Source: Sinonovacula constricta (lineage: Eukaryota > Mollusca > Bivalvia > Cardiida > Solecurtidae). Taken from it: a DNA stretch of 64,000 bases. The position numbers and the translations under genes are program-made. Positions 5,216 through 56,785 of the stretch are shown here, in pieces. How positions within the stretch are numbered: position 1 is the first letter of the stretch; each line of letters opens with the position of its first letter. The stretch is from positions 2,057,160-2,121,159 of the forward strand of contig CM017567.1 of the NCBI GenBank assembly GCA_007844125.1, read 5' to 3'. Below the pieces are notes generated by a model. That model searched no databases, was not told the origin of the DNA, and worked only from the letters and a program-made list of their open reading frames with translations.

Positions 5216-5234
5216 AATAATAATAATAATAATG

Positions 5235-5329
<95 letters not shown>

Positions 5330-5352
5330 GATGATAATAATAATAATAATAA
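5216..5352. repeat. AAT/TAA trinucleotide microsatellite, about 135 bp
   Basis: A near-pure (TAA)n tract with a few GAT interruptions, about 100 bp upstream of the ELP2 start. The poly-Asn frame across it is not a gene. Confidence 0.97.
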
Positions 5353-5454
5353 TCTATTCTATTAAAGGGATGCAATCAATATAGAACTAACGCAAAAAGT
5401 AAGTACGAGTTTTTTCCCTTGAGTTAAGCGTCTGAGAGATCTGTTTCATCACAA

Positions 5455-5464
5455 CAATGGCGGC
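5455..5464 (+). promoter_or_regulatory. YY1-like motif overlapping the ELP2 start codon
   Basis: The sequence around the ATG reads CAATGGCGGC and continues CACC. This matches the core of the YY1 consensus (AAnATGGCGGC), which in animal housekeeping genes often sits at or just after the transcription start and can include the start codon. It suggests a short 5' UTR and a TATA-less promoter just upstream. Motif match only; binding is inferred. Confidence 0.4.
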
Positions 5465-8400
5465 CACCATTGACACATGTTACATTAGCGGCGGTTGTAA
5501 CAGAACGCCTCATTGTGCCGACTGGGGAAGAAATAATCTGCTGGCATATGGCTTATGTAATTCAGTGGCAATAAGTCAACCGGAGGTAGGATAAATTTGT
5601 ACATATTTTCTTTATACATTTGTATTATCACTTTTTTTCTACAACAAATTTTATGACGTTTGACGGTTTGTTGGTTGTTTCACAATAACAACACTTGTTG
5701 CAGTTTTGTGTTTTTGTTGAATGAAATTTTTAACTTCAAGAAGATTTTGCGCAACTGATCATCTGATATTTTTATATTTTCAGACATTATCTTAAATACT
5801 AGAAAAAAAGACCTGGCATTGTGTCCGCTTCGGGCTTAAGCCGTGACTGCCTAAGTTCGATTCCAGTCAGCGATATAGCAGTCATAAAAAATAATCATAT
5901 TGGTAAACTAAACAGCCATTAAAGATAAAAGAAAATAGTTGAAAATATTCTGTTCAATTTAAAGTAAAAATGTATCGATTTATATCTATATATTTTGTCG
6001 ATATTTGTCCTTCAATATATTGATATCAACAAAATACAAAAAAGAAGAATAAATGACAACCCTACATTTGTTTGAGTAAAAGGATTTATCTCTTTAACAA
6101 AATTTACTATTTATGCTCATACTGTTTTTGTAAAATGCTTTATTTAATGGTAGGCTCTTTTTTTTACACGAAATTAACATACAACTTAAATATTACCACT
6201 CAAAAAGGAGTTGAAATAGATGCATTGAATGCTAGTTAGTAAAATGAAAATGTAAACATTCCAAAAAATATGAGGGTAAAAGGTAAGATTTGAAAGCTGA
6301 CTCTGAAGCAGAAGATTGTAGGTTTGATCCCTTCCCTTAGTAATGGTATTTTACAATGTCACATCTAGTACAGCATACTTGTTCTAATCCCAAACTTGTT
6401 TATATGTCCTCACCCTCCAATCACGTCACTCAGCTAGGAAAATGAACACACAACTTTTTCAAGATTTAAGTGCTTTACCAACTGAACGTTCTTGGCATAC
6501 GTCTCTGGATAGTGACATTTTCATAACATTCCTATGAGAGCAATAACTGTATTACAACACTTCTTTTTATTTTCAGACTGTGTTGCAGCATGGCTCAATA
6601 CTAAGCACTTTGGCTATCCATAAAGATAGGGTGAACTGTGTTCAATGGATAAAGAGACATGGAGGAAGTAAGTTTGAAGAAGAAAGTCATATGAATATGC
6701 TTTAAAAAATCAAGGATATCACTGCATAAAAGAGAAATGTTACCTTACTTTCCAATGTGGTCGTTTAAGTACACTTCCTGGGTAGAACCAGTACTCATGT
6801 AGCACATACCTGAGATTATGACAAGTAAATAGTCTTGCCCAAGGACTAACATCTCAGGCCAAGTTAGGGGTTCCTGTTCAGGGCCCGTAATTCCAAGTGT
6901 ATTGCCTTAACCACTAGACAACTGATGCGACATTCGAGGTGAAAAATAAATATTTCAGCAGTGGAACAAAATAACATAAACAACTAAAGAAAATACAAAA
7001 ACACACTCTGATAGAAATACGGTAGTTACATCAAGTGTGAATCAAGGTTTATACTTGTACTGGAAAAATAATACATATGCTGAGAATAGTTATCTAACAA
7101 AGTCGGTGTACATTAACCCACCATTGTGTTGACCATATAAATAAATTTGCTTACCGATTCCAAGGTGGTAGAAGCTGCTTTGTTGCAATTTGTGTATGTT
7201 GTTTTTTATGTAAAATTCATTATCAGATTTTTTTTGAGAATTATATGAATTCTTTGTTGAATGCACTGTGCTACAATTAATATACCCAGCATAGATGAAT
7301 AATGAAACTATGTTTATATTCCCTTTTTTAGAAGCTGAAACAGAGTTGGTTTCTGGATCTGTAGACAAAACATTAGTGGTGTGGGAGATTCAAGATAAAC
7401 AGGTAATACAAGAACTCACACTGTAAATGCCATTCTTTAACATTTTGACTCCATTTAACTGCAATGTTGCTATCCGAAAGGTGAAAATTTAAAAGTGTTA
7501 CATTTTGATATAATTTTGACTGTTTTAACACTAAAAATTACAATGTCATTTTGTACATTGAAATAACTAACTGAGCTGCCTAGTAAATTCAAAATATCTC
7601 AATTATCATTAATAATCTTTTTTTTATTTTTAGTAACTGATTTCATATATATTCAGAGCAACAGATAAGGATTGACTGTGAATTGAATATTACCCCACTA
7701 CTTTGAAATTAATTGAGTACCAATAAGCATTATTGAGTACCATGCGTCACATTACTCACTTACACGGAGGTCAATTGAGTACCCAGGGCCTACTGCATTA
7801 AGTCTTAAACCAATAAGCTACGAAATTGCTGGCCGAAGCTATCCAGAAATATCGCCGAAATTATTTTGCAATTAATTACAGCATGCAGGAAGAACAAGCG
7901 TGATCTCATTATTTAATTCTTACTTTGATCAAACTTTTTTTTAAAAAACATAATAGGCAAATATTTATAACTCTTAAAAAATCACATTTCGGCAATAACC
8001 AGCTTGTTATGACTATTAATGAGCGCGCGACTTCGCAAGGAGGAATAGGTCAATGAAACTTGAGCACACCTGCCACTGGCAGCCTTGATTCTATTTAATG
8101 AATTAAAAGTAATATAGTATGTAGTTGTACGGTCTATGACGTAATGTCGGTTAAGCACGCGCTCAATGATTTTGGTTTTACTGAATTAGCAGGTTTTCTA
8201 TTACTGTTTTCACTGTTATGCAACCAAATGATTTTTAAATGAGTAATGGATGTTTTAATTGAATTTTGTCACTCACTATCTCACATTTTTATTGCGTAAA
8301 TGGCCATTTGGAATTGCATATTCATGCAGGTACACACCTTATCTGTTGCTCTGTATATTTAAAAATGACTCTTATAAAAAAAAAATTAGGGAAATTAATT

Positions 8401-11400
8401 TTCAGTAGAAGGCCACATTCTACTTTAACTATTTACAAATGTTTACTCCTTTCTCTAGTTCAAGGCACAACAGACTCTCACTGGACACACAGGTCCGGTA
8501 ACTGCCGTGACAGCCTGTTACCAGGGCAACTGTGATCAAACACCTGAGCTATGTCGGACATTGGTTGTGTCAGCATCTGTAGACTCAACGGTCAGGGTCT
8601 GGTGTAGAGATCCTGGGAAAGGTATTGTTGAATTTTCAATACACATATGCCGGGGATGAATATATGATATCAAAATGTTACACTTTCTTCAGAGAAACCA
8701 ACTGGCTTGATGTGAGAATTCTACTTGCTAGAAACTTATTCAAAGTATAGAAACCTGCTAAATATGAGAAACTCTCTGGCTCAAATGTAAAAAACCTTGC
8801 ATAACATGATTCAAAATGTCATTCCAAAAATGATGAATAATCATTTATGTTTTATATCTCCGACTGTTTCAGATTTTGTCGAGGTCCAGTCTATCAGTTA
8901 TGGTGCAGGATTTGCCCTGGATGTGTCACTAGTTACTGTTCCAGGCACCAGCTGTAAGTGAGATTATTGTTTCTAGATACTAAACCAGTTTTTTGCAGCC
9001 AATGATGGAGAAAAGAGGTTGCGCCTTTCCTGTCCAGCTTTTGGCCATCTGTCTGTCCATCAATCTGTTTATCCATCACACTGTCTGTCCAACTTCCTTG
9101 TCCAAAACTTTTGCTAAATAAATACTTAAAACTTGAAAAATATTATAAGTAGATGTGCAGTGCACAAGAACGCTAATAAATATGTTTTATTTATTTTTAT
9201 CTCCCTTTGAAATTGTGACTTTTCCTTACATTTTCATTAAAATTTAAAATATTACAAAAACGTGTTTCATTCTGCACATTTTAATGAATTTAAATATAAT
9301 TTGGATTATATTGAATTAAACTTATATGTTTACAATCTGTTTTGTGTTACATGGTTAAAAATTTATATGCATATAAACTATTTTGTATGACTTGATTAAA
9401 TGTTTGATGAAAGCTTGTATGTTTACAATCTATGTTGCATGTCATGATTTACCGGTAAATTTCATTGAAAATTTGTATGTTTACAGACTATTTTGTATTA
9501 CATGGTTAAACTTGCAATAAAATTTATGTTTGCAAACTATTTTTATATTACGAGATTACCATTACATGGTCAACAACAACACTGCATAACTGTCAATATG
9601 TCAAAAGGCATGCATGTTCAAATAGAATATGCCTTGTTTTTTTAATATGTCTTTAATAATTTTAGCATAGTCAGTATTGATGTATGCTGTCAGTGTCTTT
9701 AGAATTCTTTTCTGTTGTCAACTATAGCTTAATTGTTTGCTTTCTTTTTTTATTTTGATTCCAAAGGTTATCTCATTTTTTCAGCTATATACTTTTGATA
9801 CAACATTTGCCATATACTGCCTGTGTTTATATATATATTTTGCTGAATAAACTACACAAACTATGTTTATATTTTGTATTTTTCCTTGTCAGGTGTATAT
9901 ATGTTGTTGATTGAGTACAGATAGTATGATGTTTGTACACTGTTTCCCTATCAGGTGTATATATGTTGTTGATTGATTACAGATAGTATGATGTTTGTAC
10001 ACTGTTACCCTATCAGGTGTATATATGTTGTTGATTGATTACAGATAGTATGATGTTTGTACACTGTTTCCCTGTCAGGTGTATATATGTTGTTGATTGA
10101 GTACAGATAGTATGATGTTTGTACACTGTTACCCTATCAGGTGTATATATGTTGTTGATTGAGTACAGATAGTATGATGTTTGTACACTGTTACCCTATC
10201 AGGTGTATATATGTTGTTGATTGATTACAGATAGTATGATGTTTGTACACTGTTTCCCTGTCAGGTGTATATATGTTGTTGATTGAGTACAGATAGTATG
10301 ATGTTTGTACACTGTTTCCCTGTCAGGTGTATATATCTTGTTGATTGAGTACAGATAGTATGATGTTTGTACACTGTTACCCTGTCAGGTGTAAATATGT
10401 TGTTGATTGAGTACAGATAGTATGATGTTTGAACACTGTTTCCCTGTCAGGTGTATATATCTTGTTGATTGATTACAGATAGTATGATGTTTGTACACTG
10501 TTTCCCTGTCAGGTGTATATATCTTGTTGATTGAGTACAGATAGTATGATGTTTTAACACTGTATCCCTGTCAGGTGTACATATCTTGTTGATTGAGTAC
10601 AGATAGTATGATGTTTGTACACTGTTTCCCTGTTATGTGTATATATCTTGTTGATTGATTACAGATAGTATGATGTTTGTACACTGTTTCCCTGTCAGGT
10701 GTATATATATTGTTGATTGAGTACAGATAGTATGATGTTTGTACACTGTTTCCCTGTCAGGTGTATATATGTTGTTGATTGAGTACAGATAGTATGATGT
10801 TTATACACTGTTTCCCTGTCAGGTGTATATATCTTGTTGATTGAGTACAGATAGTATGATGTTTGAACACTGTTTCCCTGTCAGGTGTACTGCTGGCCTG
10901 TGGCTGTGATGATCAGAAGGTCCATGTCTATGTCCAGACAATAGACAGTTCAGATCAGCTTAAGGTAATGTAAGATACTCTCAAGGCATCATCCATGAAG
11001 AACAGCAAGAGTACCTGACTTATAAGTCACTATGATACCTTTATATCATATTATTATGCTAAGCCACAGACTCCAGGAGTTCATGTCATAAAGTAAAAAC
11101 TTAATGTGGGTAGGTCTTTCTACACTGAGCCAGTAATTTTACTCAGACATTTTTCTGGTATCTTCCTTTATCAATAACAATATGACAAAATTACATTTGT
11201 GTAGGATCCATTATTTATAAACAAGTAGAACTTTATGGTAATATAATAATATACTCATTTCTCGATAGTTTCGTCAATTCTCATGATTTCGTTTATTCTT
11301 TTTTTCACTATACCCAATCAGTAGATATGTGTGATTTTTGCTCAATCTGCTTAAATATTATCTTGAGCTAGGTTTAAATGGACAACCAAAAGAAAGAAAG

Positions 11401-14400
11401 AAAAATCAATTCAGTTGTAAACATCAACTTAAAATTGTTACATTACTGATAATATAAATTATTTGTTGTGTTTCTGTGGTCCCTTCTTTGGTTTTTATAG
11501 TATTTATTTCAAAGCACATGATTGAATGTCTGAAATGGTCTACATTTAGATACAGGATTTATTGTAAATATGAAATATAGAAATAAAACGAAATAAATTA
11601 ACAGATTCACGAGAAAACACATTTCTTCTCCAGACATTTAACTTGTTGAAAGCAAAGCCACATTTTAATTTATTGCTATTGTGTTTGACTTAAGTGCTTG
11701 CTTTTTGGTTACAGAGATGCTTAGTAGCAGGGTACATAATTCACAGTTAAACTGGAGATCATTTACAATGACTGACAAGGTTGAAGCTCTTAAGTTGATT
11801 AAATCATGGCAAAAGAGTATACTTCTCAGCTGAAACATCATATTGTGCCACTCATCAATCTCCTATTCAAGACAATTTTAACAATAAAATGTATTGTTTA
11901 TGGAGGTTTTGTCCACTCTGACACCAAACTGGTATCACAGTTACATTGTAATGATGAGTGTAATATCTGATAATAGATGATTCCACAATTGATATGTAAC
12001 TCATTTTATTTCTAGATCAAGTGCTCAAAAATGGAATCTCAAACAAAATTTGCATGTTTCATTTTATGTAAAGGTCATTTGCCATGTGCTTTACAGTAAC
12101 ACTGATTGCATACTTGGGATTAATTAGACTCATTTACAGTTGAGAACTTAAGAAGCCATCCATAATCGCCAATATTTTTTCATAAGAATTACTACAAACC
12201 GGTTCAATGCCTGGTTAAGGTAAGAGTGCCTTCATATATAGGAAGATGTTCAAACTGATTTGTGCCAGTGGTTAAACCCTGACATTAGGATACATTGGTG
12301 AGATAGAAATTGTCTCAATTGTTAGTTAATATTCAAGGTATTCGAAACAGTTGGTAGGTCCTTTAAGTTGGAATTTATGGACTTTATCACCTGTTCTTTT
12401 GCACATATTGCAATTAAAAAAAGTGAAATTTCTTACTTTGGAATAAACATACGCTTAAAATTCCTTTAAATACATATAGAGATATGTTATTTAAAAGAGA
12501 AATGGAAGTGTTTGTTGAGGATGGTTAACCTGGGCATCACAAGAAAGGCACAAAAGTCTACATACACTCCATAGAGCACAAGCATAAAAAACCCAGCAAA
12601 ACAAATGAAAGGACCAACTTGCATTTGGGAATTATATAGGGGTGACTATTCATTAATGTCTCTCATTGTCTGCAATCTTTCTCCACCTAGAATAGCTGGA
12701 CATTACCAATATGACAATCATTGTGTCTGTGCCATCTATCTGATAACAACAGATTACAGGTCATTACAAAAGGTATATTCCTGCTGCTATGTTACAGTTT
12801 GTACAAGGAATCACACTACCTGGACATGAAGACTGGGTGAGGGCTGTGGATTTCACCACTGATGGTAAAATTTTAATATATCTGAAAGTTAAACAAAAAG
12901 ATTATTGTAAACTGGTTGAGTTCGAAAGTTTAATCTGTATATCAATTTTTTTCGGAATGTTGGTAAAGGTGGTGGTGACCTTGCAAAGAGACCTTTGCAG
13001 CTAGAGACATTTGCTTCTATTGTAGAATCATTTTTCAGTTGATTTTTAGCTGGAACAGATGTGAGACAGAGGATTCACCACACTGACATCATGGTTATGG
13101 TGTTACAACTCCCTCACAAGTCTGGGACATCAACAAAGCTTTAAGCTAAACCTTCATTTAACATGCTTTGTTTGCATTTTAGTGTGTGTGGGGGGGTATT
13201 TCTGGTTTAAAATGTAGGCTACCAACATTAAGCAAAAACTTTATGAGTGTGTATGATAATCAGTCATTCTTATCTTTATATGTGTGCTACAGACAGTGGG
13301 GACCTTCTGCTGGCCAGTGCAGCCCAGGATCATCTGATCAGAGTCTGGAGGTTTGCGCCCAGGACTCAAGACTCCCAGGTCCAAGCAGCCTCCGTGCTGG
13401 ATCTACCGGCAGGACAGGATATACAGATGAGGGAAAACACTTTCTCCTTTACACATAAAGGTAAGTTCACATATTCTATCTTGGATTTGATACACTTAAT
13501 AAAACAGGGACAAGCTGTTCATCTCCTTATAACTACTGATACATATGAATTTACCTTTAGATATAACTTGAGGTATTTAATTAAGTTTTAACTAAGCTTC
13601 TCATATTGATTTAAATGAGGGAAAACAATTTCTCCTTCGCACAGAAAGGATTTATTCAAGTATAGTATGGTAGCCTCATGATTAAATTTGTAATTTGTTA
13701 GTTTAACTTATTGTAACATGTAAATGTCAATCAAATAAACCCTTTCACTGCTGCTTGACCTATATCTATTTATAACCACTATCAATGCTCTTATACATAC
13801 ACCATATGTCCTGTGTACAATTATTTTTGAGTGTTTACAGCATTGCTAATTTCCTATGAAAGTATAACCAGAGTTACTCCCCTTGACAGTAACTTACATT
13901 GCTCTTTTTGTCTTAGAACTATTCATATTTTTGAAGATGTAGGAGTGAAATGCCAAAAGAAAAAAGTAAAAGTTCTGGATTTTTTCAACTTTTTTTTCTA
14001 TTTTTGAAAGTCCATAACATTTTTTTTATCACATGATAATTATTAGATTTTATATTATTCTGAATTCATATTCAAGTACCTTTCTAATGATATATAGTTT
14101 TACATATCCAAAATTATAAGCAAGTTATTGACAATTTGACATATGGTATTTTCTTAAGAAATTTATAGAAAATGTCTCAGCATGGGGGGTGGAAAAGGCT
14201 TAGCAGTAAAGGGTTAGTTTAATTACAATAATTCTTGTTTTTAAGTTCTTAATATTTATTAAACTTGTATGTTATTGTCAGACCCAAAACACAAACAGTT
14301 TTATTGTTAGACCAACTTTAATTGAAGGCCAAAACAAACTCAAATGCAATTAACCTATGAAGGATATTATAGTGAAAAAAAAATCTGTGTCAGTGATGAA

Positions 14401-17400
14401 GATATCTGCAGGGCAACGTTTGTATAAAAATGCAAACAGTTTTAAAAAAGACTAATTTTCTACAGGTTCCCCATTAGTGTATGCTGTAAGCTTGGAGACA
14501 GTGCTCAGTGGACATGACAACTGGATATATAGCGTCAAGTGGAAACCAAAAACTTTTATTGGTAATATTTCATCAACTTCCAAACAAAATCAAAACAGAG
14601 ACACTTGTTCCATAATTGAAGACAGATTTTATATGACAACAAGTTATCTGAATTGGTTTGTAACATAATAAATTTCTTAAATGAATAGGTTAACCATGCA
14701 TTTTTTTCTAACCTTTTGTCATCAGTTACCACATATGTAAATGTATAACTGTATATTAATGGGAGATATGTTTGTGAACTATTTTAACTTTTACGACATT
14801 GTAAGAGCTCAAACTTACTAGTATATATACAGCATTGAGGTTGGTAATATGACCCTGCCTTGTTATGTCTATGGTTTAAGCCTCAAAGGATTATTCTGCT
14901 CATGCAAATTACTTTACAGGGCCATATGTTGGCTGCTAGTATGGGACATAACCTATGACCATTATATAAAACTTCATAGACTTGCAAGATTTGACGTAGA
15001 CTCTGACTTTGTATTACCTTTCACAATTCCCTGTCAGATGGCTCAGCATGCCAGGAGATGTGTCTCCTCTCTGTGTCAATGGATAAAACCATGATTCTGT
15101 GGAGGCCTGAGGAGCAGTCCGGAGGTGTCTGGATGGAACAGGTACATGTACTCTGTCTAGTTGAGACATGAACTCTTGGCAAGTTTTCTGAGTGCTGATG
15201 GATGAGTGGTTAGAGTAGTTAATGTCAGAATAGTTGTTTCAAGTTAAGCATATTCTAGTCGAATTTCTATAAATATTACATAGTCACTTGAACTAGACCT
15301 GGTAGTTCAGTCTGTGGAGTGTCAGCTCTAGATCAAAAGGGCCTGGGTTCATTCCCAATCCGTGATGTACCAAAGTTATTAAAAACTGTAGTAGTATAGC
15401 TCCCCAGCTTGTGCTGAAGCGAAAAAAGGGGAGTTCCACGACTGGTCTGGTGTCAGGATAATGGGACTGAGTGTGGTATCATGCCAGGTGTTCACAGCAT
15501 GCTATACAGTGAATGCAGCATAATATCTGCTTCAATTGGACACTGTCTCCAAATAACTGAAATGCTGCTGGTGGTACAATAAAAGACAAAACTAAACCAC
15601 ATGGAAGGCATCTTCTAGCTTATTTGCGGCGTGTTTTTGTGTCGCCTGACTAGGCGACGTATAGGGATTACTTTGTCAGCGTCCGCAGCGTGGGCGGCGT
15701 CCGGATTTCCTTGTCCGGAGCCTAACTTTGTCACCGTAGGTCCAAATGATTCCAAACTTGGTATGCATGTTCCTGGCAATGACTCGAAGTGCCGCGCGCA
15801 AGAACCGTAACTCTACCTTCTTCTGTTTTTTAGTTATTCCCCTTTGATTGATTTTATAGAGCATTTCTTGTCAGGAGCCTAACTTTGTCACCGATTTTTA
15901 GTGCATTTCTTGCGAAGGGCATAAGTGCATGTTTTTTGCAATGAGACAATTAAAAGGTTATTTTATATGTGAATTTTGTGCAAATACATTGCTAATATCT
16001 GTACAACAAAAAAATAATTAACATTTTTTATGTTGACTAACAAAATTTTCATCAGGCGACACTTCTGACTCCTGGAGTTCTAGTTTGTACTTAAAATTCT
16101 CAACTGAAGTCTTATTCCTTCAAGCATAGCTGGAAGTTGCCCTGTTTATATATTAGTGTCAACAAACAAAACCTCTATGTGTTTCAGATGCGCGTGGGAG
16201 AAGTTGGAGGTAACACCCTAGGACTTTACGGTGGAATGTTTGGACCCCACGGGGATGTCATCTTTGCTCATGGATACCAGGGTGCCTTTCACCAGTGGGC
16301 ATATAACAAGGTAAGCATCATTGTTATTGTTACTGCAGCAACAGTTTCCAGCATATAAAGATTTATAATTAACTTCATCATTGTCTTCATCAAGCACATA
16401 ATCATAATCACCATGATATCATAAGACTGAGTACATGTATTTTTATATGTAAGATAAAACTTAATTAAACTCGAGCCATAAAGATACATAATTTTAAAAA
16501 AATTTAATGGCTCATTTATATCCCATTTGCTTATACACAATATATAATTTATCTAAAGCAACTCTATAAACATAACATTTCACAAAACATTTACTCATTA
16601 TATATGCCAAACAGCTTTCTGCATACATTATTAGAGACATATATTACATCTACATTGTACTTGTACGGGACAAGCTTTATTTGAATATTAAGATTCTGTC
16701 CCTCATAAATTCCTATTGACTATAATAGGTCAACAAGAAAAGGTGGTGGTTTATAAGAAATCAGACCAGGTAGAAATGTCAATATATTAATTATGCATGA
16801 AACAGCCATGCATGGAGTGTCCAGATTGTTTCATCAAGTACCTTGTTTATTACAAATTGTATTGCCAAAAATGCTACATATTTCAAATTTATAAATGCAA
16901 AACTTTGCATTAAGTATAAAATCAAATTTTGGTACCAAATCTTTAAAATACTTTTAAATGTTGGTCTATGAAAAATGTAGTGTCACAACTTTCTTAATAA
17001 ATGATGACACTCTGCAAGTAGCACACTGTTGCAATTTCTGCAGGAGCTGAACACATGGGAGCACTGTGTCACTGTTAGTGGCCATTTTGATTCTGTTGAG
17101 GACATAGACTGGGACCCCAAGGGAGGTAACTTTCTGGTCAGCTGTAGTCTAGACGAGACAGTTCGCCTCTACGCTCCTTGGGTCCGGGACAATGGGCAGG
17201 TAAATTGATGTGATGTTTATTCATTTGATATGATTATATTTGAAATACATTCTTTAAAGGTCTGTCAGTACGTATAACCCACAGGTTGGGATGCTAAGGA
17301 AGATAACTTCCTTGTCAGCTGTATCAACAGTCCATTTGGGCGCTCCTTGGGTTTCAGTTGTGGGCAGGAGAGATGGCATGCAAGAACTGTGTTGTATATA

Positions 17401-20400
17401 ATATATATTTCTCTGTATGATCCATGATGTTTAACCTTGCACACAAAAAAAAATGAAGACATATTTTATTCACAAGATCTAAATTGTGAGTCATTTATTT
17501 TTTATTTCTCTTTATTTTAACTACCATATGCATAATATACCATACAAATAAAACATTTTTATTCATTTATTTGTCTGTATATTTTCAGATATCCTGGTTT
17601 GAGATTGCTCGTCCCCAGGTCCATGGATATGCCATACAGTGTATCGCCATGGTGAACAGATATACCTACGCCTCTGGGGCAGATGAAAAAGTAATCCGAG
17701 TTTTTGATGCCCCTGATAATTTTTTAGAGAACTTCTGCTGTTTGTGTGGCCAGGATCTGAAGTCAGAGCAGCAAGGGTTGGGGCGTAGTCGAGCAGTGGG
17801 TGCTAGCGTGCCCGCGCTGGGACTGTCCAACAAGGCAGTGTTCACAGACGGACAGGTGAACCTGACAGAGGATCTGCAGATCAAACCATCAGAAAATGAA
17901 CAGTACACAGATAATGTATTTACTCAGGTCTTACTGAAGGGTATGTTTGCTCACTTATTTGAAAGAATATTTTATTAAATATACCCAATTAGAATATATG
18001 ACAAAGTCGTGTAGGCATTGCAACATATACCAAAATTTGAACAGACGCAGGGCAAAGGTATTCACATGCAAGCCATACTGAAGGATACCATTGTGATACT
18101 AAATGACTTCTTTTTTACATCTTAAGTACACAGAAAGTAATTACCTGAGGAAATGTGTAATCCTGCCAAATATTCTGGTTTTACTGGAAAAAGAACTGTG
18201 AAACCTCCAACTAAGATTCCCAGCCACAAGATCACATATGATAGGCAGATGTGAATAAATATGTATGACTGTTTATACACCCCATGAAGTTTGAGGGACG
18301 TGTATACTAGAGTCAGCATGTCCATCTGTCTATCAGGGCTTCTCCAACAGTTTTTGCATCAGTTTAGATTAAACTTCTTAATTATTTTATGTATCATAGG
18401 AATATTGCAATTACTTTTTTTGTTATGATTACAAATTGCATGAGTTATATTTGTCATAGAAACATTGCAACTGTTACTAAACAAGTTATTTACCTTATAA
18501 AAAAATTTCAGAAATATATAAGAGCAAGATTCATGAACAGGGAACAGATTAAGGCATAAATGTTATCCCTTAGCTTTCAGTTATAGTTTCAATATGTTTC
18601 AGAGCCTCCTACAGAAGAACATCTACTCCAGAATAGTCTTTGGCCTGAGGTCGCCAAGTTGTACGGTCATGGCTACGAGATATTTGCACTGGCTTGTGAT
18701 CCCCAGGGCACTGTGGTGGCCAGTGCATGTAAGGTAGGACACAATCAGATGTTTAACTATGTACCTGTTTTTCATTGATGTAAAAAAATAAAGAAATTAA
18801 TTATCGAAATTGTTTATTTATATAAAATTCCAGAAAGTTTGGACAGTTACTTCTGAAATGATGATTTTATGAGAATGATTCCTGAACTTACCCATAATTT
18901 GTTTATTCAACACTAGCAGTGCTGGTATGATATGAAACTAAAAAGACTATGAATATTTTTTTTTACACTGATTGCTTGGGGTTTTTTACATTTATTTTTT
19001 GAACATAAAAAATAATTTATTACTGGGATAATAATTTTACCATTGTGAAAGATTTTAATATAACAACACCAGTTTTTCTGGATGCAAAAAAAAAAGTTTT
19101 GTGTAAGTGATTTTGTCTTGAAATTTTGTCATTCACTTTTGGAGTTTGTTTTGAATAACTTGATTATTTGATGACATTTCACAGGCAGCCAAGGCTGAGT
19201 TTGCATCTGTGATATTATGGGACACAGCTGCCTGGCAACAGCAGTGTACCCTGGAAGGTCCCAGTCTGACGGTGACCCAGATAGCATTCTCCCACACTGG
19301 AGAGTATCTGCTGACTGTGTCCCGCGACAGAACTTGGTACCTATATAAAAGAAGGCCACATGATGCACCTTCAACAGGTGAGGTTATCTTTATGTGTCTG
19401 TACAAATCAAAAAATACAGAAAATTGTGGTTTAATTACAGGCTAAGACTTAAGATTACAAAGGTTATTGCAGTATGTATTGGCTGGTGTTACAAATATAT
19501 GACAGAGTGTGGTACAATGTTTAATTTGTCAAATTATCAACTTGAAGGCTGCACTTTATCTAATTGAAGTGAACTATGCTACTTCTTTGTTTGTTTATTG
19601 GATTTATCATCCGACCAACAGTATTTCAGTTATCTTGATACGGTTTTCACTTGAAATAGATGTAGTGCTGCCTTCACTGTATATAGCATGCTGTGAACAC
19701 CTGGCATGATACCACACCCAGTCACATCCTGACACCAGACCAACCAGTCATGGAACTACCCTTATTTTTGCTTGAGCGTTAACAAGGGAGCTATACGACT
19801 ACCACTTTAAACGACTTTGGTAAGTCGCTGCTTGAGATCGAACCCAGGGCCTCCTGTGCCTGGAGCCAACACTGTACAGATTGCGCTGCCAGGTCCAGTG
19901 CTACTTCTTTGACTGAAATTCTGAGTGTAAAATATATGCTAGCAAGTTATGATAAAAACTAGTTTGATTAAGGTACCTTTGCTAATAAGTCACTTATACC
20001 TGCTGTTATAGATCCTCTATTCTCCTTGCTGGCCTTTGTGGACAAGAAGACATGTGTGCATTCTCGAATTATTTGGTCCTGTTGCTGGTCTCATGATGAT
20101 TTGTACTTCATGACGGCTTCTCGCGATAAAAAGGTGAGATATATTTCATTACACAGATAAACATTTTTGTGATATTAAGGGAAAATGTAATGTGCTATTA
20201 TTTATTATTACTGTATAAGGATTTCTAAACTATTAGCCTGCTAATAACGTATTTACACGGCTTAGAAAAATAATGAAGATCACGATCAGACAGGTCGGCT
20301 GTGGACTGACTGAACAGCATCTACACAATATGCTGCTCTCTTGCAATATTTCTTGTCATATTTATATGTAGTTGTAAGCAAATAATGAAAGATTTCTTCC

Positions 20401-23194
20401 CACTGACTTGTGGTACCCATTGAGTCTACCTTGGTAGTTTGTCTGGAGTTTTTCTCTACCATATAGCTGGATGTCGCTATAATGATCATAATTGGTCGCT
20501 GTGATGTATTTCAAAAACAAAAACTTAACAAAATGAAGATTTGGTAATACTTTTTCTTAAATGTAGCAAGCTAAGTGTTAAGGAATTATTGCTTTCATTA
20601 ATCATGCCATGAAATATTCTGATCCATTGATATTGTGTGTATGCAGATCCAAGAAGATTTAGATATGGCCATGATCATGTTGTAGGATTGTCTCTTTTTG
20701 TTTCTGGCAAATGTATGTAGTATATTGACATCTTAATCAACTACAGTCTCATCACAATACAAGGAATATCCACCACATCACCCAAATCATTTGTAAAATC
20801 GTAGATTTCATATAATCGTAATGTACCCGTGGACACCTGCTATTTACACAGTTTGGCCATAAATCATGAATCAATCTTTATTAGATATAATGTTGTTAAT
20901 ATTGTAAATTTTGTAATTAAGATTGGAAATAAAAGCAAAGCATGGGGTGATTAATGTATAAATATTTATAAATTAGATGATTGTTTGTTACTATATAACA
21001 TAGTGTGACAAGATAGAATATACAATAGACAACATACAGATGTATATGTTGGCTAGTTCAACATTTTACACAGTGTGTATGTGATGGTTAAGAAAAGGAA
21101 AGTGCAGAATGTTGCAGATATTGCTAAGCTGTTTATCTTCGAATGCATAGATGGATCATAATCTTCATTTCAAGTCCAACCCATTCACATATTTACCTTA
21201 TTAACTAAATGCCATGTTGGTGTAAAGTGATAAACAAAGCATGGTAATAGGAGTTTGAAGGTAAACTGTGGTCACTACCAGAGGTGTGAAATCACGTAGA
21301 TGAGCAGCCAAATTCTGCATGTACTAAGTAAGGTAGATTATTGATTTTCTGGACTTCGATTGACAACCGAGTAAGCCTAGACATCCAATACATCTAAATT
21401 CGAAATATCATAACATTTTTACATAGAATGTATAGGAAGAATGATGGAACCGACTGATGTATCCATAGTAGCCCAAACATTTATTAAATTGTGATCTGCA
21501 GTATCATGGTTCGACTTAACACGAATTTGAAGACAAAAACTTAATGATTATAACATGTTATGCATTGTTAACCTTATCACTGACTGTCATATTTCTATAA
21601 CTTCTATAAAATAATATTTCTTGCCAAAGGTAATTGTCTGGAAATGTCCATCCACATCCAGTGATCCTATACAAGCCGTAGGGAAGCTAGATGTACCTGA
21701 CTCTGCCACAGCTATTGATGTAGCACCAGTAGGCATTTCTGACAACAGGTAAATGTGGGATATGTATAATTGGGTTGTTGTTTTTTATGTACATGGAATA
21801 AAAACATTTAAGTCAACTGAACATTGACAACTAAGCTGTAGGTTACCAATAGATGTTACTAAATGAATACACACCGAGTTATGTGATAATTCTAATTTCT
21901 TAATGAGAATCTAAATGTAAACTTTTAGCTCATTTCTTTTTACATATATCTTTGCATCCTTTATCAGCGACTGGACCTTTTATGGACACAAAATGACTGT
22001 ACCATGTCTTCTTTTGCCAGTTACTTACACTTAACTTTTCTTAGAAGGTTTTTGTGAGTTGTAAATAAACATATAGACCAGCCCACATATGAGTCTGCAC
22101 TTATTTTCTGATGCTTATATTACCGAATAATCTGAATGTATGAAACAAAACCTCATCAGCATTCTTCTGTATGTTTGGATGCTATTTTCTTTGCCAGCTT
22201 CTTCAAATGTGCTCTCATTAATTTATAAAATTCATTTGAGCCTGCATTCATAAGAGTCAATTCTTATTTTCTGATGATGTATAATTAAATAATATTTACG
22301 TATGATAATGATTTTCTTGTCAGCTACCTTGTTTGTGTTGGGTTGGACAACGGAAGCATCCAGTTGTATAAATGGGTGCCAGCAGAAACATCACCATGGA
22401 AACAGTTGGTTGTCCTTGACAACAAGTATCCTTTGTCAAACAGGCAATTGTTTTTATTCATCCTGTTGAATCTGAAAGCATATCTTATCTTTTGTGTATA
22501 AATAATAAAAATTTCAAAGCAACACATTGCATTTCATTGAAGTAAATGGTTTTCTTTTAATGATTTTCAGACAGAGCTTCGTCTTAAGACCTCACTATGA
22601 TTGGACAGATGTAAATATTATCATTCTAGCTTACCAAATGAAAATTAACAAAATATATATCATTGTTCTCACCGAAACTACTTAGCCTTTGAGGTATGTT
22701 ACCTCAGCCTACACTAAGGCAAGTTAAACTAAAATCCAGCCAGATAAGATTTTTATTGTGTGTTTTTTTTCCTTTAGATTGTAATAATTTTTAGTAATAG
22801 TTATTATTAACTTTTTGAATGTTAACATTGGAAATTACATTTATATCAAATCTGATTGACACAAAGCCTTATGAGATGAAAGCATAAATATTTTCAACAG
22901 TCAAAAACAATGGTTATTAATGTGCAGTATGGTGTATAGTGTGGTATTTTCAGTTAATTAGGCATTTAATTTGCTGAACCATATTGATATTATAACCTTA
23001 ACCCTGTGTCCAGTTCTGCCCACCATCTGACTGTTAAGAGACTGAGATTCAGACCATGTCTGGGTTTGGCTGGTATCCATGGTAACCTAGGGTCAAGATC
23101 AGATATAAAGGAAACTGAAGACTGGCTGCAGCTGGCTAGCTGTAGTGCTGACCATACAGTAAAAGTGTATAATATACTGCTGTCCAAACTGTAG
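5457..23194 (+). CDS. ELP2: Elongator complex protein 2 (WD40 protein), 19 exons, complete
   Basis: ELP2 is the WD40 scaffold subunit of the six-subunit Elongator complex, which modifies wobble uridine of tRNAs. Exons: 5457-5585, 6577-6667, 7332-7402, 8459-8621, 8873-8953, 10885-10964, 12798-12864, 13293-13460, 14466-14561, 15038-15141, 16188-16310, 17044-17199, 17589-17940, 18603-18733, 19185-19377, 20012-20133, 21630-21748, 22324-22425, 23014-23194. All introns are GT..AG, and the joined length is 2,529 nt (842 codons plus TAG), close to the vertebrate length of about 826. WD motifs run throughout, e.g. [13 protein letters not shown] (exon 7), [13 protein letters not shown] (exon 9), MDKTMILW (exon 10), [11 protein letters not shown] (exon 13) and SADHTVKVY at the C-terminus. 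Family hallmarks [24 protein letters not shown] and [16 protein letters not shown] are present. The start is the first ATG of an exon whose product aligns with the ELP2 N-terminus. Exon joins are by eye; the exon 18 donor (AACAA|gtatcc) is the weakest. Confidence 0.96.
7654..8353. mobile_element. 700-bp non-autonomous DNA transposon with perfect 17-bp TIRs in ELP2 intron 3
   Basis: Left end CAGAGCAACAGATAAGG (7654-7670) is the exact reverse complement of the right end (8337-8353). TATATT lies on both sides, a possible target duplication of at least 6 bp. The CAG start and short duplication suggest a hAT-like origin, but the family is not certain. No open frame of transposase size is present. 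It ends about 105 bp before exon 4. Confidence 0.85.
9893..10884 (+). repeat. 62-bp minisatellite, exactly 16 units, made of splice acceptors
   Basis: The AG at 9891-9892 and the true exon 6 acceptor AG at 10883-10884 are 992 bp apart, i.e. 16 x 62. Every unit ends in a pyrimidine tract and AG (such as GTTTCCCTGTCAG) followed by GTGTA, the same bases that flank and begin ELP2 exon 6. Units differ by a few substitutions (ATG/ATC, GAG/GAT) and no net length change. See findings. Confidence 0.95.
13740..14213. mobile_element. MITE-like element in ELP2 intron 8
   Basis: The ends are imperfect inverted repeats: CCCTTTCACTGCT on the left and AGCAGTAAAGGG on the right. The interior is AT-rich and non-coding. 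Confidence 0.55.
15288..15597 (+). mobile_element. tRNA-derived SINE, family B, copy in ELP2 intron 10
   Basis: tRNA-like head (ACCTGGTAGTTCAGTCTGTG, then GGGCCTGGGTTCATTCCC) followed by a body containing GGTGTCAGGATAATGGGACT and CAGGTGTTCACAGCATGCTA. The same body is found at 19588-19902, 59650-59815 and 59855-60112. Confidence 0.85.
15639..16062. mobile_element. Foldback/DNA element with GTGTCGCCTGA ends in ELP2 intron 10
   Basis: GTGTCGCCTGA (15639-15649) and its perfect reverse complement TCAGGCGACAC (16052-16062) bound a segment with a GC-rich left half (15650-15800) and AT-rich right half. No transposase frame is visible. It follows the SINE at 15288-15597 and ends 125 bp before exon 11. 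Confidence 0.6.
17272..17372 (+). pseudogene. Decayed duplicate of ELP2 exon 12
   Basis: About 70 bp after exon 12, the intron holds a second, degraded copy of the exon: GGTTGGGATGCTAAGG, GATAACTTCCTTGTCAGCTG, then CGCTCCTTGGGTTTCAG and TGTGGGCAG. It aligns with exon 12 strings TGGGACCCCAAGG, GGTAACTTTCTGGTCAGCTG and CGCTCCTTGGGTCCGG..GGGCAG. The donor after GGGCAG is lost (GAGAGA instead of GTAAAT) and the middle is frameshifted, so it is not usable as a coding exon. Confidence 0.75.
19588..19902 (-). mobile_element. tRNA-derived SINE, family B, copy in ELP2 intron 15
   Basis: Reverse-orientation copy of the family at 15288-15597: TAGCATGCTGTGAACACCTG, then GATCGAACCCAGGGCC (B box) and GCGCTGCCAGGTCC (head). 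Confidence 0.85.
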
Positions 23195-23858
23195 TGCTGT
23201 ATTGTAAAGGTCTACAATATACAGCTGTCCAAACTGTAAAGCTGTACTGTAAAGTTCTACAATATACAGCTGTCCAAACTGTAATGCTGTATTGTAAAGG
23301 TCTACAATATACAACTGTCCAAACTGTAATGCTGTATTGTAAAGGTCTACAATATACAACTGTCCAAACTGTAGTGCTGTATTGTAAAGGTCTACAATAT
23401 ACAACTGTCCAAACTGTAGTGCTGTATTGTAAAGGTCTACAATATACAGCTGTCCAAACTGTAGTGCTGTATTGTAAAGGTCAACAATATACAACTGTCC
23501 AAACTGTAGTGCTGTACTGTTAAGTTCTACAATATACAGCTGTCCAAACTGTAATGCTGTATTGTAAAGGTCTACAAGATACAGTTGTCCAAACTGTAGT
23601 GCTGTATTGTAAAAGTCTACAAGATACAGTTGTCCAAACTGTAATGCTGTATTGTAAAGGTCTACAAGATACAGTTGTCCAAACTGTAGTGCTGTAATGT
23701 AAAGTTCTACAATATACAACTGTCACAACTGTAATGCTGTATTGTAAAGGTCTACAATATACAACTGTCCAGTTAGTGCTGTACTGTTAAAGTTTTACAA
23801 TATACAGCTGTCCAAACTGTAGTGCTGTACTGTAAAGGTCTACAACATACAACTGCCC
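23141..23858 (+). repeat. 45-bp minisatellite beginning in the last codons of ELP2
   Basis: About 15 units of 45 bp follow the ELP2 stop codon, each near GTAAAGGTCTACAATATACA + GCTGTCCAAACTGTA. The first, slightly longer copy is the ELP2 coding end itself (about 23141-23194). Because 45 is a multiple of three, long periodic open frames exist on both strands; they are by-products, not genes. The last units (about 23770-23858) have small indels. Confidence 0.93.
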
Positions 23859-23926
23859 ACATGAATGAAAAATTTCAATTCATGATTGTTTTAAATTCCC
23901 TCTTTGAAATGAAAGAAATGTTTTAG

Positions 23927-29601: not shown

Positions 29602-46552
<16,951 letters not shown>

Positions 46553-55687: not shown

Positions 55688-56785
55688 AGAGGGCCATGAT
55701 GGCCCAGTATTGCTCACCTGAGTATGACTGCTTTTAACAAAGTTGCTATGGACCTTGTTAATTGAACCCAGATGACCCATATTCGAACTTGACCTAGAAA
55801 TTATTGAAACAATCTCTTTGAAAAATTTCAAGGTTATTTGTACTGAAAATGTTACCTCTAGAGTGTTAACAAGGTTTTTCCATATTTGGGCTCTATGACC
55901 TAGTTTTTTAACCTAGATGTCCCATATTCTAACTTGAGCTACAAATTAACGAAACAATCTCTCTGACAAATTTCCAGGATATTTGGACTGAAAAAGTAGC
56001 CTCTAGAGTGTTAACAAGGTTTTTCGATATTTAGGCTCTGTGGCCTAGTTTTTGACCCCAGATAACCCATATCCAAACTTGAGATACAAATCATCAAAAC
56101 AACCTTTCTGACAAACTTCCAGGACATTTGGACTTAAAATGTAGCCTCTAGAGTGTTTACAAAGTTTTTCGATATTTGGGCTCTGTGACCTAGATGTTTC
56201 AACTCCAGATGATCCATATTCAAACTTGAGCTAGAAACCATAGAATTAAGCTTTCTGACAAATTTCCAGGTTATTTGGAATTAAAATGTTACTTCTAGAG
56301 TGTTAACAAGGTTTTTCCATATTTGGGCTCTGTGACCTAGTTTTTGTCCCAAGATGACCCATACTCCAACTTGAGCTAGAAATCATCAAAATAAAAAAAC
56401 CTGTCTGACAAATTTCCAGAATATTTGGACTGAAAATGTAACCTCTGGAGTGTTAAAAAGTTTTTTACATATTTGGACCATGTTACCTAGTTTTTGATCC
56501 CGGATGATCCATATCCAAATCTGAGCTAGAATTCCTTGAAACGACCTTTCTGACAAATTTCAAGGACATTTGGACTAAAAATGTAACCTCTAGAGCATTA
56601 TCAAGGTTTTTCTACTTTCAGGCTCTGTGACCTAGTTTTTGACCCCAGAAAACCTATATTCAAAACTGAGCTAGAAATCATCGATGGACCTTTCTGACAA
56701 ATTTCCAGGTTATTTGGACTGAAAATGCTACCTTTAGAATGTTAACAAGGTTTTTCCATATTTGGACTCTGTGATACTGAAATAC
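55688..56785. repeat. Diverged 144-151-bp tandem repeat, about 7 units
   Basis: Begins AGGGCCATGATGGCCCAGTA and TGCTCACCTGAG, then units with TGACCTAGTTTTTGACCCC, TCTGACAAATTTCCAGG and CTCTAGAGTGTTAACAAGG. Spacing between successive CCTAG positions is about 144-151 bp. This type of repeat is familiar from bivalve genomes. Confidence 0.88.

Follow-up and report, generated by a model that had tools for sequence, protein, structure and literature searches.

Results

Gene models and the array in intron 5

The window, by which is meant the whole stretch of 64,000 nt of Sinonovacula constricta DNA that was analysed, carries an ELP2 gene on the plus strand, from about 5463 to 23194. A tblastn search with a human ELP2 sequence returned colinear exons. 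Bivalve ELP2s were the closest proteins to the resulting model among the best 120 of 1642 matches, with identities, within those 120, of 68% for Mercenaria, 67% for Ruditapes, 65% for Mya and 63% for Mactra. The gene name proposed in an earlier reading of this DNA from its letters alone (hereafter the sequence-only reading) was thus borne out. Eighteen introns were modelled in ELP2 and 16 in a HECW2-like E3 ubiquitin ligase gene on the minus strand (29602-44396), three of the latter being doubtful, and the shortest of the 34 was 251 nt. Sixteen of the 17 internal exons of ELP2 were shorter than 200 nt. ELP2 exons are numbered from the first coding exon found, and "exon 6" is to be read in that sense. 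The HECW2-like gene has one very long coding exon (42577-39629, 2949 nt as modelled, with a doubtful 3' end), and an AAT microsatellite of 46 copies (5216-5353) stops some 110 nt upstream of the earliest ELP2 coding exon detected.

Intron 5 of ELP2 lies between coding exon 5 (8873-8953, plus strand, donor GCT/GTAAGT after 8953) and coding exon 6 (10885-10964, plus strand, 80 nt), and contains a tandem array of 16 complete 62-bp units (9893-10884, plus strand), the last of which ends at the true acceptor. The TRF call was 9881-10889, with a period of 62 bp, 16.3 copies, 95% matches and 0% indels. Each unit starts with GTGTA, which is also the first 5 nt of exon 6, and ends with CAG, except for one that ends with TAT; the unit therefore takes in the 5-nt start of exon 6 together with 57 nt from the end of the intron. 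The mean identity between pairs of units was 95.1%, with 13 distinct sequences among the 16 units and 10 variable columns out of 62. The junction motif recurs in both flanks of the array: on the left it is matched at 12 of the final 14 nt, and on the right in the 5 nt next to the array. An indel-free array of 16 copies of 62 bp is not a chance event.

The array is real and had been located correctly by the sequence-only reading, which slightly miscounted the spare sites. It had listed sixteen spare acceptors, and 15 spare AGs were counted here: CAG/GTGTA was read at 16 of the 17 in-register junctions, and the junction ending at 10636 reads TAT/GTGTA, its AG having been lost (TAT in place of CAG at 10634-10636, plus strand). 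The same reading had described seventeen equivalent AGs at 62-bp steps; the register is exact, without indels, but the 16 AGs that are present differ in acceptor score from 1.16 to 10.24 and are not equivalent.

Reading frame at the junctions

The last junction, AG at 10884 followed by GTGTACTGC, enters the ELP2 coding frame. Joining exon 5 to exon 6 at this position gave a protein that aligns without gaps to Mercenaria ELP2, and the codon split over the two exons (T/GT) encodes a Cys that is also found in the Mercenaria and Ruditapes proteins; the aligned residue is Arg in Mya and Mactra ELP2. The claim that only the last AG properly meets coding sequence was therefore upheld, as this join yields the homologous protein in the right frame. 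Exon 5 was also joined to each of the 16 upstream in-register positions (the 15 with an AG and, hypothetically, the dead junction without one), and in every case a TAG was reached 29 nt after the junction, in agreement with the early TAG that had been predicted. Thirteen introns lie downstream of the stops in the region of the exon 6 junction. Nonsense-mediated decay is expected for a stop ahead of later introns, and since 13 introns follow the stop, mRNA made with a spare AG would be expected to decay.

Strength of the acceptors and candidate branch points

A weight matrix was trained on 30 acceptors and 30 donors of ELP2 and the HECW2-like gene, leaving out the exon 6 acceptor and the intron 5 donor and dropping three of the 16 HECW2 junctions as doubtful. 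The real exon 6 acceptor scored 6.27, within the range of the real acceptors (0.69-10.72, leave-one-out). The 15 spare in-register AGs scored from 1.16 to 6.95, apart from the leftmost, TTTGTATTTTTCCTTGTCAG (9873-9892, plus strand), which had been missed as the strongest of all 16 and scored 10.24. The AG nearest upstream of the real one, at 10822, scored 6.95, and its use would make an exon of 142 nt, inside the length range of ELP2 exons. Use of the last AG alone is not explained by site strength, because the site at 10822 scores as well as the real one. Among the decoy AGs of the other ELP2 introns, 31 of 642 reached the median unit score; acceptor scores at the level of the units are uncommon but not rare among ELP2 intron AGs.

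A second acceptor-like site, TACAG/ATAG, was found 34 nt ahead of the unit AG in all 16 units and had been overlooked previously. In the last unit it lies at 10831-10850 (plus strand, weight matrix), and it has the equivalent place in every other unit. These sites scored 5.86-8.66, and nine of the 16 exceeded the real acceptor. Joins to three of the 16 were tried, and all three gave stops within about 20 codons.

The sequence-only reading had proposed TTGAT as the branch point of each unit AG. The motif is indeed present in 16 of 16 units, and in the last unit its A is 44 nt upstream of the AG. It is nevertheless a poor candidate, because other AGs intervene before the unit AG is reached: three in 11 of the 16 units, including the last, and two in the remaining five. 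ATGAT, 25 nt ahead of the AG and within an AG-free stretch, is a candidate branch point.

The unit junction as a donor

The suggestion that CAG/GTGTAT could also act as a weak donor agreed with its score of 5.14, which is low within the range seen for real donors at this locus: 25 of the 30 outscored it in leave-one-out tests, and the value was reached by 40 of 706 decoy GTs. The real intron 5 donor itself scored 4.68. The unit donor has an A at position +5, where 19 of the 30 donors have a G, and GTA at positions +3 to +5 was found in none of the 30. Exon 6 has a middling donor of its own at 10964 (8.57, in a range for real donors of 1.5-12.3, leave-one-out).

Ratchet (recursive) splicing needs a good 5' splice site to be regenerated after the first step. 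The site regenerated by joining exon 5 to a unit, GCT/GTGTAT, scored -3.02, compared with 4.68 for the real donor. Stepwise splicing through zero-length exons is unlikely because the regenerated donor is very weak.

Variation within the array and its origin

The acceptor zone covers 20 of the 62 columns of the unit and holds five of the 10 variable columns (hypergeometric P(<=5) = 0.95). Nothing suggests that the spare acceptors are maintained by selection, and one of them is already dead. The sequence-only reading had offered a kinetic trap, a tunable regulator or tolerated junk; maintenance of the spare acceptors by selection was not supported, the acceptor zone being no less variable than the rest. 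RNA folding of two single units and of one pair of units was no better than that of shuffled sequences (z of 0.14, -0.12 and 1.09). Neighbouring units were more alike than distant ones (231 of 10000 shuffled orders were as extreme).

An original copy was looked for to the left of the array. The core of 9811-9892 was unremarkable in comparison with the unit (1130 of 5000 shuffles and 853 of 12554 real windows were as good), and inclusion of the acceptor motif was needed for significance (22 of 5000 shuffles did as well). No signal was obtained for 9741-9835 as a left-hand copy (702 of 1000 shuffles as good). We infer the duplication history, because no left-hand original is recognisable beyond the acceptor motif. 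The exon 6 acceptor was the only one of 68 exon edges tested with a nearby copy of its own 20-mer (at most 4 mismatches, within 1500 nt).

Given that the array extends 5 nt into exon 6, its units are bound to be in register with the real acceptor. With random placement of this array within the span of ELP2, an end would overlap some exon edge by 0-5 nt with a probability of about 0.024. The 23 arrays of the window were also compared with the exon and stop edges of both gene models; two of the 23 lay at such an edge, and random placement most often gave three or four. The position of the array is thus unremarkable on its own, as arrays at edges are no commoner than expected at random. A base-rate sample of 200 kb, from 20 stretches of the same chromosome (7650 N), contained 34 arrays with a period of 20 or more. 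Five of these had a unit AG with an acceptor score of at least 6.27 and nine had AGGT, and none had an AG/GT with an acceptor score of at least 6.27, so arrays here do not ordinarily have this signal. The simplest account of the AG/GT signal is that the unit derived from the real boundary.

Further duplications within ELP2

A second array, of 15.6 units of 45 bp (23159-23859, plus strand, TRF), starts in the last coding exon of ELP2 and repeats the end of the coding sequence, stop codon included. Downstream of the real stop (TAG, 23192-23194) there are 13 spare in-frame stops. The unit encodes the peptide NIQLSKL, which is nearer to the end of Mactra ELP2 than is the last exon of the window itself (NILLSKL).

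Two decayed copies of coding sequence were detected, each in the intron following its source exon. The end of exon 8 (13427-13461, reaching 1 nt past the donor edge) recurs 188 nt downstream at 13615-13649 (plus strand), with 89% identity over 35 nt and a BLAST E-value of 1.5e-7. A copy of exon 12 lies 177 nt downstream at 17280-17380 (plus strand); the part found by BLAST, 17280-17323 (77% over 44 nt, E-value 2.5e-4), corresponds to sequence inside the exon, and the match crosses the donor edge and extends to 17380 only with lax gap costs. In a control with 100 shuffled windows, BLAST returned 11 matches at E<=1e-3 and none at 1.5e-7 or below. The exon 8 copy stands by BLAST alone, because no shuffled window reached its E-value; for exon 12, none of 1000 shuffles was as good in a pairwise test. 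In the HECW2-like gene, no comparable copy (E<=1e-3) was seen for any of the 15 internal exons, as modelled. In ELP2, coding sequence seems to have undergone frequent local tandem duplication, in a small sample that sets one gene against one other.

Occurrence in the assembly

The assembly searched comprised 1.22 Gb in 177 contigs. A DNA search that skips very common words located the array only once in it. All 13 genome matches to the Mya ELP2 protein fell in this locus (some ELP2 exons were unmatched), and none of the 13 was a retrocopy showing a spliced exon 5-6 junction. Elsewhere in the window, outside both arrays and their edges, only short and weak matches to the unit were present, and a 26-mer of the unit had no exact match in viral contigs.

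Discussion

Relation to known repeats at splice sites

Minisatellite-like repeats that span an intron-exon boundary, called mirages, have been described in lancelets in Adh3, BflGb6, BflGb9, TnC and PGBD5, with reported variation in length and reportedly without disturbance of the regular mRNA or of splicing (PMC3087553, PMC3902484). The ELP2 array shares three features with them: it is tandem and minisatellite-like (16 x 62 bp, 0% indels), its units span the boundary, of which the last is the real one (AG at 10884, with 5 exon nt involved), and AG/GT is kept in 16 of 17 junctions, with one TAT/GT. In the lancelet repeats too, as far as the relevant passages go, tandem units lie across the boundary and many but not all of them keep AG/GT, and in PGBD5, as in ELP2, more than one boundary of a single gene is affected. 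The differences from the lancelet cases in these passages are the host, here a bivalve, the gene, ELP2 not being named in them, the dimensions of 16 units of 62 bp, and a unit that takes in no more than 5 nt of exon.

A mirror form is found on the donor side in human ABCA7, where the 25-bp unit of a VNTR in intron 18 starts with the exon 18 donor and the length of the VNTR affects splicing; in one isoform a single unit is kept and shifts the frame (PMC5954066). According to the passages of that report, both repeats hold a real splice site and carry it through the intron, but the ABCA7 repeat is C-rich, has about 12 to 427 units, is linked to disease and has a measured effect on splicing. Tandem duplication of AGGT can lead to intron gain (the Rogers model), as described for a potato RdRp, vertebrate ATP2A1 and the yeast genes SPOG_01682 and SOCG_00815 (PMC4974935). 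As presented in the parts of that paper concerned, the CAG/GT unit junctions and the intron-like ends of the units are similar to those seen here, the fission yeast genes have several tandem units crossed by an intron, and the potato duplicated segment included the 3' end of an intron. Those segments were mostly exonic and a new intron was reported, whereas the ELP2 array lies inside an intron. Searches of open-licence literature, most subscription papers being outside the scope, met no mollusc case of a boundary-spanning repeat array. The ELP2 array seems to be an instance, in another phylum, of a repeat type already described, and suggests that boundary-spanning minisatellites occur in molluscs too.

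Fate of the array during splicing

We consider it probable that the array is a mirage, that is, a minisatellite across the intron 5/exon 6 boundary, of which the last AG is used and which is removed with the intron. Given the anatomy, frame and stops observed, we propose how the array may have arisen, how the last AG could dominate and how decay would follow. A unit across the boundary may have expanded by unequal exchange or slippage. Exon definition would then pair the donor of exon 6 at 10964 with the nearest acceptor; the AG at 10884 would thereby be used, and the array would leave with intron 5. If a spare AG were occasionally used, translation would meet a stop after 29 nt for an in-register AG, or inside some 20 codons for a TACAG site (three of 16 tried), and the mRNA would presumably be degraded. 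Functional tolerance of the array is most likely; by analogy, the lancelet mirages, which are reported to leave the regular mRNA intact, would support this. The three further local duplications of coding sequence in ELP2 (the stop codon, the exon 8 end and exon 12) also favour the mirage reading. Site strength does not account for exclusive choice of the last AG: the site at 10822 matches the real one, and the strongest site, at 9892, is the farthest away.

A rival reading is that real and spare acceptors are in competition, the unit count fixing how much ELP2 pre-mRNA is lost to decay, so that variation in copy number would tune ELP2. Every upstream in-register join reaches a stop, the sites at 10822 and 9892 and nine of the 16 TACAG sites outscore the real AG, and in ABCA7 a VNTR carrying the exon 18 donor is reported to alter splicing and to give an isoform with one out-of-frame unit (PMC5954066). 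We regard such tuning as doubtful, since the spare sites are not conserved, one has been lost, and the lancelet mirages, in the passages available, are reported not to interfere with splicing (PMC3087553, PMC3902484). A further reading is an artefact, with the array being a stutter or a mis-joined repeat of the assembly. A single assembly was used, and several kinase exons occur twice in it with identical scores, which might indicate that it holds duplicated stretches. A stutter would nevertheless be hard to reconcile with 13 distinct sequences among 16 units, with the greater likeness of near units (231 of 10000 orders as extreme), with flanks that are in frame with ELP2, or with the single place found both for the array and for ELP2. 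Assembly error is an unlikely source of the array, and little weight is given to it here.

Units, or the whole array, might also be excised as introns in a nested or recursive manner, giving the same mRNA whichever AG is used first. Every unit starts with GT and ends with AG, with one exception, and the CAG/GTGTAT donor at 5.14 exceeds the real intron 5 donor at 4.68. Cutting out 9893-10884 would put the strongest acceptor (9892, 10.24) directly ahead of exon 6, and in fission yeast introns across four and two duplicates have been reported for tandem 24-bp AGGT repeats, in the part of the paper concerned (PMC4974935). The probability of splicing of this kind is nevertheless slight: the stepwise form would depend on a regenerated donor that scores only -3.02, the A at +5 and the GTA at +3 to +5 are at odds with the donors of this locus (G at +5 in 19 of 30, GTA in none), and excision of a single unit of 62 nt would be far below the shortest modelled intron. 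The specific form in which the whole array is a nested intron, with its donor CAG/GT at 9892 and its acceptor AG at 10884, and is cut out before the rest, is given a slimmer chance again. If it were true, the strongest acceptor of the region would be rejoined directly to exon 6, and any number of units would be tolerated, as the array would always run from GT to AG, making the end of the intron copy-number-proof.

The locus is a natural test of the choice made by the spliceosome, which has to take one of sixteen near-identical in-register acceptors with 16 TACAG sites between them. If the number of units varies, ELP2 alleles would be a ready dose series for competition between acceptors.

Other repeats in the window and the assembly

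A diverged array with a period of about 145 bp, and longer-period forms of 292 and 442 bp, was found at 55762-56774 of the window. Examples of the kinase exon pairs with identical scores are C3:29868851/C3:35365837, C11:26256981/C11:26980417 and C2:31295017/C2:36751232, in contig and position. Some of these pairs lie on opposite strands of one contig, and may be recent duplications or haplotypes kept twice.
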